From positions 1 through 34,205 of the forward strand of contig JAPNUP010000113.1 of the NCBI GenBank assembly GCA_026627345.1: a DNA stretch of 34,205 bases, given 5' to 3'. Below, one piece after another: positions 27,289 to 29,813 of this stretch. The notes below the pieces were generated by a model. The model had not been told where the DNA came from and did not search any database. It saw only the letters and a program-made list of their open reading frames with translations. A program made the position numbers and the translations under genes. This stretch comes from Bacillota bacterium. Lineage in GTDB: Bacteria; Bacillota; Bacilli; Alicyclobacillales; SLC66. Position 1 is the stretch's first letter. Every line of letters begins with the position of its first letter.

Positions 27289-28299
27289 CTAGCCTAGCAG
27301 TCGCGAGACATGCGTCCACACCCGCTCATTGTCTTCGCGGGTTTTGATAGCCACGCGCCGGTAAGCCCCGTCTAACCCTTGAAAACTCGAGCAGTCGCGT
27401 AGCCAGATACCCACTTCTTGCAATCCAGTTGTGATACGCATAGCCGTGTCAGCGTCAGGAAAGCGTACCAAGAAAAAGTTCACTCCTACGGATTCTATCG
27501 CGAGTTGGGCGTGAGTTCCCCAAGTCGCTGCTATATAGGACTGTTCCCTGATCAACCAATCATGTGTCTGCGTTGCAAAAGTCTGATCCTGATAGGCCGC
27601 GACCGCTGCCGCTTGCGCCAGCGTATTGACACTCCAGCCGTCGCGATCGCTCTCGATAGCTTCGATCTCACTGGCGCGCCCGACCGCAAAGCCGAAGCGC
27701 AGTCCAGGGATGGCGTAGAACTTTGTCGCGGAGCGAATCACATAGAGGTGTTTAACATGCTGCGCCTCCTGAAGCAGGCTACAGCTTTCGTCGCCCGGCA
27801 CAAAGTCTATAAAAGATTCATCCAGTAAGACGGTGATCTGCCGCGCGCATAATGCCAAAACATGATCACGCAAGTCCTCGCGCGACCACACTTGACTCGT
27901 CGGGTTGTGCGGGTTATTGATCATCAGCATATCGCCTGGCGCAAGCTTTGCATGCAGGCTACTGAAAGGCACCCGATAACCGTCTTCGTCATGGGTAAGC
28001 GAAAGGCCTATCACTTCGTACCCGTGCCGTCTCGCGACCGCCTCATATTCGCCGAAAGCCGGGTGCAAGACGATGATCCGCGCTGGGTGCACGTGGCGTA
28101 GAGTTAGTTCTAGCGCCTCCATCGCGCCGTTGCCGCAGAGAATACTATTCTCGCAGATGCCAAAGCGTTTAGCCACGACCTCTTTCACTTGCCGGTGGCA
28201 GGCGTCCGGATAATGGACAATCGCAGGCAACGCATCTGTGATCGCCTGCCAAACGGACATCGGCGGGCCTATTGGATTGATATTCGCGCTACAATCCAC
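27289..28299 (-). CDS. cobD: Threonine-phosphate decarboxylase CobD (PLP, aminotransferase fold), N-terminus disrupted
   Basis: A class I/II aminotransferase-fold PLP enzyme that makes (R)-1-amino-2-propanol phosphate, the linker attached to the cobalamin precursor by CbiB. Motifs are DCSANINPIGPP, NNPHNPTSQ, LLDESFIDF, the PLP lysine in SATKFYAIPGLRFGF, and the carboxylate-binding arginine near RVAIKTREDN. GTG 28299 is the first usual start codon in frame. The conserved N-terminus (HGGTIFDYA) is encoded in frame upstream from 28356, yet no ATG, GTG or TTG precedes it. ATG 28384, in the ATGA overlap with cbiB, is out of frame because of five Gs at 28374-28378. The gene may be frameshifted, use an unusual start, or carry a sequence error. 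Confidence 0.82.
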   Translation of the reverse strand: MDCSANINPIGPPMSVWQAITDALPAIVHYPDACHRQVKEVVAKRFGICENSILCGNGAMEALELTLRHVHPARIIVLHPAFGEYEAVARRHGYEVIGLSLTHDEDGYRVPFSSLHAKLAPGDMLMINNPHNPTSQVWSREDLRDHVLALCARQITVLLDESFIDFVPGDESCSLLQEAQHVKHLYVIRSATKFYAIPGLRFGFAVGRASEIEAIESDRDGWSVNTLAQAAAVAAYQDQTFATQTHDWLIREQSYIAATWGTHAQLAIESVGVNFFLVRFPDADTAMRITTGLQEVGIWLRDCSSFQGLDGAYRRVAIKTREDNERVWTHVSRLLG

Positions 28300-28380
28300 G
28301 ATGTCTTGCCAATGTGTAGCGGTTTGTCGTGCATAGTCAAAAATGGTGCCTCCGTGAACGACGATCCTGAGTGCCCCCTA

Positions 28381-29343
28381 TCATGTCAAACTGAGGATAA
28401 CGCCTGCACCGGCGCAGATAACCAACAGCAACCAAGATACCAGACTAACTAACCGCGCCACGCGCTTGATGTCGGATGCCACGAGTGGCCGTGTAGCATC
28501 TCCCATGTACGCCCGCAGTGACACGACTCCGCCGTAACTGTTATACCCGCCTAAGCGAACGCCCAAAGCGCCTGCTACCATGGCTTCAGCCATTCCGCTG
28601 TTTGGACTCGGGTGTTTGCCTGCGTCTCGACGCATGATGCGCCAGGCGTTTTTGGCGTCGGCCCCCGTCAGCCAAACGGCCACCCACAACAGCAGCGCCG
28701 TGATGCGAGCCGGCAGATAATTGCACACATCATCCAAGCGCGCGGACGCCCAACCAAAGATGCGATACCGGTCATTTTTGTACCCGACCATAGAGTCGAG
28801 CGTATTGACCGCGCGGTACACCCATGCCCAAGGGGCACCTCCGACGGCTGCGAAAAGGGCGGGTGACACGATCGCGTCCACAATATTTTCCGCTAACGTC
28901 TCCACCGCGGCCCGCACGACTTCTTCCTCAGTTAAGTCTGCCGTGTCTCGGCCTACGATGCGCCCGACTTTGTCACGCGCCGCTGGCAAATCACCTCGCG
29001 CCAGGCAGCGATGCACATCGATCCCAGCGCTAAGCAGCCCTTTCCAAGCGATTGCCGTTGCGGTCAACCAGATCGCGATAACAGCAGACAACCAACCGCG
29101 AACCAAGGACAATTCGTGCAGGAGAAGCCAGACGATCAATCCAGAGAAAGTCGGAATCAACAGCGCCAGACACACACCAAACAGCCGGCGCACAAGTGGC
29201 CGGCTGTCGGCACGATTCCATCTTCTCTCCAACCATTTGATCAAGCGACCGATACCAATCACAGGATGAGGCAACCAAGCCGGATCCCCGATCACACGGT
29301 CAAGAGCGAGGGCAGCGGCTACGATATAGAAGCCGGAAAACAC
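28381..29343 (-). CDS. cbiB: Adenosylcobinamide-phosphate synthase CbiB
   Basis: A 320-residue membrane enzyme that joins adenosylcobyric acid to aminopropanol phosphate in late cobalamin synthesis. Family motifs are DRVIGDPAWLPHPVIGIGR (15-33), AAVETLAENIVDAIVSP, YRAVNTLDSMVGYKNDRY and RDAGKHPSPNSGMAEAMVAGA. Four to six membrane segments are present. The start is GTG 29343, with only a weak GAGG upstream. It lies 8 bp after the DinB-like gene and overlaps the likely original cobD start (ATGA), so the pair makes and uses the same intermediate. No cobalamin riboswitch and no other cob genes are in the window. Confidence 0.94.
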   Translation of the reverse strand: MFSGFYIVAAALALDRVIGDPAWLPHPVIGIGRLIKWLERRWNRADSRPLVRRLFGVCLALLIPTFSGLIVWLLLHELSLVRGWLSAVIAIWLTATAIAWKGLLSAGIDVHRCLARGDLPAARDKVGRIVGRDTADLTEEEVVRAAVETLAENIVDAIVSPALFAAVGGAPWAWVYRAVNTLDSMVGYKNDRYRIFGWASARLDDVCNYLPARITALLLWVAVWLTGADAKNAWRIMRRDAGKHPSPNSGMAEAMVAGALGVRLGGYNSYGGVVSLRAYMGDATRPLVASDIKRVARLVSLVSWLLLVICAGAGVILSLT

Positions 29344-29351
29344 GAAAACGA

Positions 29352-29813
29352 TCAGCCTCTAGAAATGAAGAAAGGCATCTCGGTCGCGCCGGCCATCCGG
29401 GCGTACACGAACATCTGACCTTTGTGATGCACTTCATGATCCTTCATTGCGCTCAGAAAAGCCAGTTTCGGCGCCTTCATCCCCATGAATGAAGCATCGA
29501 GAATCTCGTTTAGCTGATCGTCTGTCAAGCTCTCGTATACCTTCTTAGAAGCATCCGTATACTCTTGGACGATGCGTTTGACATCATCCATAGTGGTGAA
29601 TGCAGGGGACTCGGCACGAGTAAACTCCCCTGTCTGAATAGCCGTTAAGAAGAAATGGGTGGAGGTCACCATATGTACCGCCAATTTACCAAGCGTCAAC
29701 GCGCCTTCCCACGGGGCAAAGTCCACCTTCTCAGCATCCACCCGACCCAAAATGTCAGGAAGCACGGCCCGATGTCTCAACCAGTCTCCCATCATCGCTT
29801 GTACTCTTGTCAT
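29352..29813 (-). CDS. DinB family metalloprotein
   Basis: A 153-residue four-helix-bundle DinB/YfiT-type protein. The presumed metal histidines are H47 (LAVHMV) and H126 and H130 (DHEVHHKGQ), matching the three-His pattern. DinB proteins are thiol-dependent transferases or hydrolases in some cases, but most have no known activity, and this one cannot be assigned a reaction. It is the first gene in a line with cbiB and cobD and may be cotranscribed. A functional link to cobalamin is not evident. Confidence 0.82.
   Translation of the reverse strand: MTRVQAMMGDWLRHRAVLPDILGRVDAEKVDFAPWEGALTLGKLAVHMVTSTHFFLTAIQTGEFTRAESPAFTTMDDVKRIVQEYTDASKKVYESLTDDQLNEILDASFMGMKAPKLAFLSAMKDHEVHHKGQMFVYARMAGATEMPFFISRG

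Follow-up and report, generated by a model that had tools for sequence, protein, structure and literature searches.

Probable initiation of cobD at a non-canonical AUC codon next to cbiB in a Bacillota genome

In the stretch of Bacillota DNA analysed here (34,205 nucleotides, hereafter the window), the threonine-phosphate decarboxylase gene cobD probably starts at a non-canonical ATC codon (AUC in the mRNA) at 28365-28363 on the minus strand, and the gene is probably unusual rather than broken. This reading draws on the open frame of cobD, its place relative to its homologues, a Shine-Dalgarno (SD) sequence and an ATC at the start of the organism's own infC, all read directly from the DNA, and from these we infer initiation at AUC itself. 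Such a start is uncommon but of a known kind and calls for no new mechanism, and its interest probably lies chiefly in a lesson for annotation. Gene callers restricted to ATG, GTG and TTG would trim 22 conserved CobD residues, including the HGG motif, and a reader might record a false frameshift.

Layout of the cbiB-cobD junction

The features of the junction, all on the minus strand, are as follows.

28381..29343, minus strand: cbiB, adenosylcobinamide-phosphate synthase, the gene upstream of cobD (TIGR00380, 3.2e-81; PF03186, 2.2e-104)
28382..28384, minus strand: ATG in the overlap with the cbiB stop (ATGA), without SD (dG +0.7) and out of frame with cobD
28374..28379, minus strand: candidate SD AGGGGG, the five Gs and the preceding A (dG -9.3)
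28363..28365, minus strand: candidate cobD start codon ATC, 3 codons upstream of HGG, SD at 8 nt (dG -9.3)
28348..28356, minus strand: codons of the HGG motif, the marker of the N-terminus (43 of 43 relatives)
28297..28299, minus strand: GTG, the first usual in-frame start of cobD, which loses 22 residues, without SD (dG -1.5)
27289..28365, minus strand: cobD, threonine-phosphate decarboxylase, 358 amino acids counted from ATC

The cbiB stop TGA (28383-28381) shares ATGA with the ATG at 28384-28382, an overlap described in an earlier sequence-only reading of this DNA and confirmed at those coordinates. After the overlap the minus strand reads TAGGGGGCACTCAGG and then ATC GTC GTT CAC GGA GGC, with the five Gs at 28378-28374 and a gap of 15 nt between the cbiB stop and the candidate ATC. 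The cobD frame is open back to a TAG at 28380-28378 and reads GALRIVVHGGTIFDYARQTATHWQDIVDCSANINP; from this TAG to GTG 28299 it holds no ATG, GTG or TTG, as had been claimed, and all coordinates that were checked agree. The ATG at 28384 opens an ORF of 15 codons, MIGGTQDRRSRRHHF (window 28337-28384), which ends in TGA and overlaps the cobD start, and which, lacking an SD, is probably not translated.

The start of cbiB is likewise somewhat uncertain: the call is at GTG 29343, AGAGG precedes it by about 12 nt, and CTG, ATC and GTT codons stand in frame between the two (29343-29355, minus strand). A small gene at 29352-29813 of the window (minus strand), which by eye we take from its sequence to be DinB-like, ends 8 nt ahead of cbiB and is an odd neighbour for a pair of B12 genes.

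Identity and N-terminus of CobD

The cobD product matches TIGR01140 over profile positions 1-327 of 331 with an E-value of 5e-83 and 279 bits, slightly short of the curated cut-off of 290.55, and is 46% identical to its orthologue in L012, a genome of the same genus. Its PLP lysine motif and conserved arginines are in place, residues S211, T213, K214, R222, R322 and R336 being invariant among 29 sequences. The AlphaFold model has a mean pLDDT of 96 and predicts a confident helix at residues 7-14, past HGG. The frame is otherwise intact and both cobS and cobQ are present, so that the B12 pathway looks functional.

Homology had been said to continue upstream of the first usual start codon, and this was borne out. 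HGG was found in all 43 relatives whose DNA was read, a set that takes in all 14 orthologues found within the family; the alignments of the relatives' CobD begin at query residue 1-3 (VVHGG), and the match to Salmonella CobD (1lc5) begins at 'aHGG'. The alignment proposed earlier as a check on whether homologues start near DCSANINP thus places their beginning at HGG, and for this reason the anomaly stands. A usual start (ATG, GTG or TTG) lies 1-14 codons ahead of HGG in every one of the 43, within 6 codons in 40 of them, and most have a clear SD. A non-canonical cobD start was found in none of these relatives, the window being the sole exception; L012, the only second genome from this genus in the comparison, starts cobD at ATG, and a scan of genome contigs for near relatives returned none.

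It is quite unlikely that the start has been lost, leaving a gene on its way to becoming a pseudogene that is little expressed or yields only a shortened protein begun at GTG 28299 or ATT 28344. The GTG is the first usual start in the frame, the ATT is preceded by an SD-like GGAGG (dG -9.5), and for certain CobD-like proteins (3fkd) the alignment does not begin until about residue 20. Against this, the GTG has no SD, and either codon would cost the protein HGG and all or part of the N-terminal helix ordered in the model; the GTG lies downstream of HGG and would be predicted to remove helix 7-14 as well. The intact remainder of the frame and the presence of cbiB, cobS and cobQ also speak against decay. 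ATT 28344 was rejected as a start since its apparent SD, GGAGG, consists of the Gly-Gly codons of HGG.

Ribosome binding at the candidate starts

Candidate starts were scored by pairing the 16 nt upstream of each with the 16S tail, assumed to be Bacillus-like, and taking the duplex dG; 224 ORFs of the organism and 2085 ATC codons inside its genes served as reference sets. The ATC at 28365 scored -9.3, close to the median of the 224 ORFs, of which about half are as good. The same value is matched by 1.9% of the internal ATC codons, which places this ATC above 98% of them. By the same measure ATG 28384 (+0.7) is poorer than all 224 reference starts, and GTG 28299 (-1.5) is in effect without SD. 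Predicted mRNA folding at the candidate cobD starts was uninformative. The SD supports the location of the cobD start and not which codon stands there. An ATC start at 28363-28365 with the G run as its SD, listed as an alternative in the sequence-only reading, emerges as the best supported of the proposals, with its dG of -9.3 and a precedent in the organism's own infC.

That reading had given precedence to a cobD start at ATG 28384 broken by a homopolymer frameshift. On such an account the G run would be one base too long through assembly error, mutation or slippage. Removal of one G does join the two frames exactly, and a cobD start inside the cbiB stop, as ATGA or TTGA, is known in the relatives L018, L067, L076 and L077. 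In these four, however, the overlapping start has an SD in every case (dG -6.8 to -11.4), so that the overlap is no excuse for an ATG without one. The mended protein would moreover carry nine residues (MIGALRIVV) ahead of HGG, longer than the leaders of most relatives (1-6), the G run is already explained by its role as SD for the ATC start, and the A in front of TGA that makes up ATGA is expected by chance in about a quarter of cases. The arithmetic by which one G fewer yields 364 residues is correct; the agreement with the length of the Salmonella protein looks coincidental, because the latter has 7 residues ahead of HGG and the mended protein 9. Programmed +1 slippage was dropped, there being no known signal for it at the junction. 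The frameshift is consequently the weaker reading and highly improbable beside the ATC start.

The layout proposed for initiation at ATC resembles that of two relatives with short gaps, in which a G-rich SD by the cbiB stop is soon followed by the start: in L020 the cbiB TGA, GGGAGG and the cobD ATG all fall within about 17 nt, and in L072 AGGGGG is followed by the cobD ATG 9 nt downstream. In many other relatives about 750-1050 nt separate the cbiB stop from cobD.

On the AUC reading, the 30S subunit would bind AGGGGG directly past the cbiB stop and initiate with fMet at the AUC 8 nt downstream, giving a CobD of 358 residues (M-V-V-H-G-G...) with the predicted N-terminus (M)VVHGGTIFDYAR. Ribosomes translating cbiB would terminate at 28381, with the SD 2-7 nt further on and the AUC at 28365; as cobD begins only 15 nt past this stop, they would probably reinitiate there, coupling the two genes. 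Initiation factor IF3 checks start codons, and CobD output may depend on it. Output is probably well under the level of an AUG start; such a low yield, argued by analogy with AUU and AUA reporters in S. aureus (PMC13009471), would be tolerable for an enzyme of a trace cofactor.

Non-canonical starts in infC and in other systems

The organism's own infC (L050, on G000:C41, minus strand) appears to begin at ATC as well. This codon, at locus positions 2010-2008, is preceded by GGGAGGTG, the product begins ISREDVQIND, and across the 25 codons upstream of the conserved ARE motif there is no in-frame ATG, GTG or TTG. All 16 family relatives have ATT where this genome has ATC. Across the order, the 46 infC genes start at ATT (37), ATA (6) or ATC (3) and none at a usual codon, the remaining two ATC starts belonging to L108 and L110 of another genus. 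AGGGGG also precedes infC in L053. The SD of the organism's infC (dG -14.7) is stronger than that of cobD (-9.3); this difference, and the fact that 0 of 43 relatives share the cobD start, count against initiation at AUC. A survey of 13 stretches and the window, about 288 kb of the genome, yielded no further convincing ORF with a non-canonical start, which suggests that ATC starts are rare in this genome; the filter overlooks genes with a spurious usual start upstream, so that the count is a lower bound, and what a looser filter picked up seems to consist mainly of wrong-strand ORFs.

The infC data also bear on the possibility that cobD starts at this very site with a usual codon that reads ATC through an assembly error or a recent, real mutation. 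All 43 relatives carry a usual start there, ATG and ATC differ by one base, and the genome is a draft in 186 contigs. The SD is equally compatible with this account: it is silent on codon identity, and a single-base error in the codon would give an indistinguishable picture. On the other side, infC of the same genome is also at ATC, and its relatives are non-canonical there too. In a deep assembly an error striking any one start codon is rare, which counts against a wrong base, and on balance we consider this account unlikely.

Initiation of cobD at AUC, if correct, adds a likely case outside infC to a short bacterial list, in a host whose infC is also AUC. A bolder proposal, which we regard as doubtful, is that AUC initiation in this lineage extends beyond a single gene, to both infC and cobD, and that CobD, a B12 side-chain enzyme, is thus under IF3-dependent start-codon control; such control would tie CobD supply to translation status.

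Among known systems, Salmonella enterica CobD (1lc5) belongs to the same enzyme family, with HGG near its N-terminus and the same TKFYAIPGLR motif, but comes from another lineage and has 7 residues ahead of HGG where the window protein has 3. The gene for IF3 offers the closest likeness in initiation, infC combining, like cobD, a non-canonical start (AUU, AUA or AUC, the last being used here too) with a well-placed SD; its unusual start is conserved, whereas that of cobD is seen only here and has a weaker SD. Use of non-canonical codons by bacterial infC is established, and the unusual start of E. coli infC is self-regulating. Titles cited in PMC9845219 give this start as AUU, and the incidence of AUU, CUG and AUC starts in prokaryotes is described as variable (PMC9845219). 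In S. aureus, infC starts at AUA, and extended SD motifs accompany the AUA or AUU starts of infC, ccpN and cvfC1; in poor medium, reporters of non-canonical starts reached about 10% of the activity obtained with AUG (PMC13009471). Like cobD, ccpN (AUA) and cvfC1 (AUU) are genes other than infC, theirs having a strong SD and a low yield (PMC13009471); their starts are conserved and were mapped by ribosome profiling, while cobD encodes a biosynthetic enzyme and its start is predicted. Inefficient AUU initiation in a single gene other than infC is also on record for E. coli pcnB, as cited in PMC13009471, which differs from cobD in using AUU rather than AUC and, according to that citation, in having been genetically tested.
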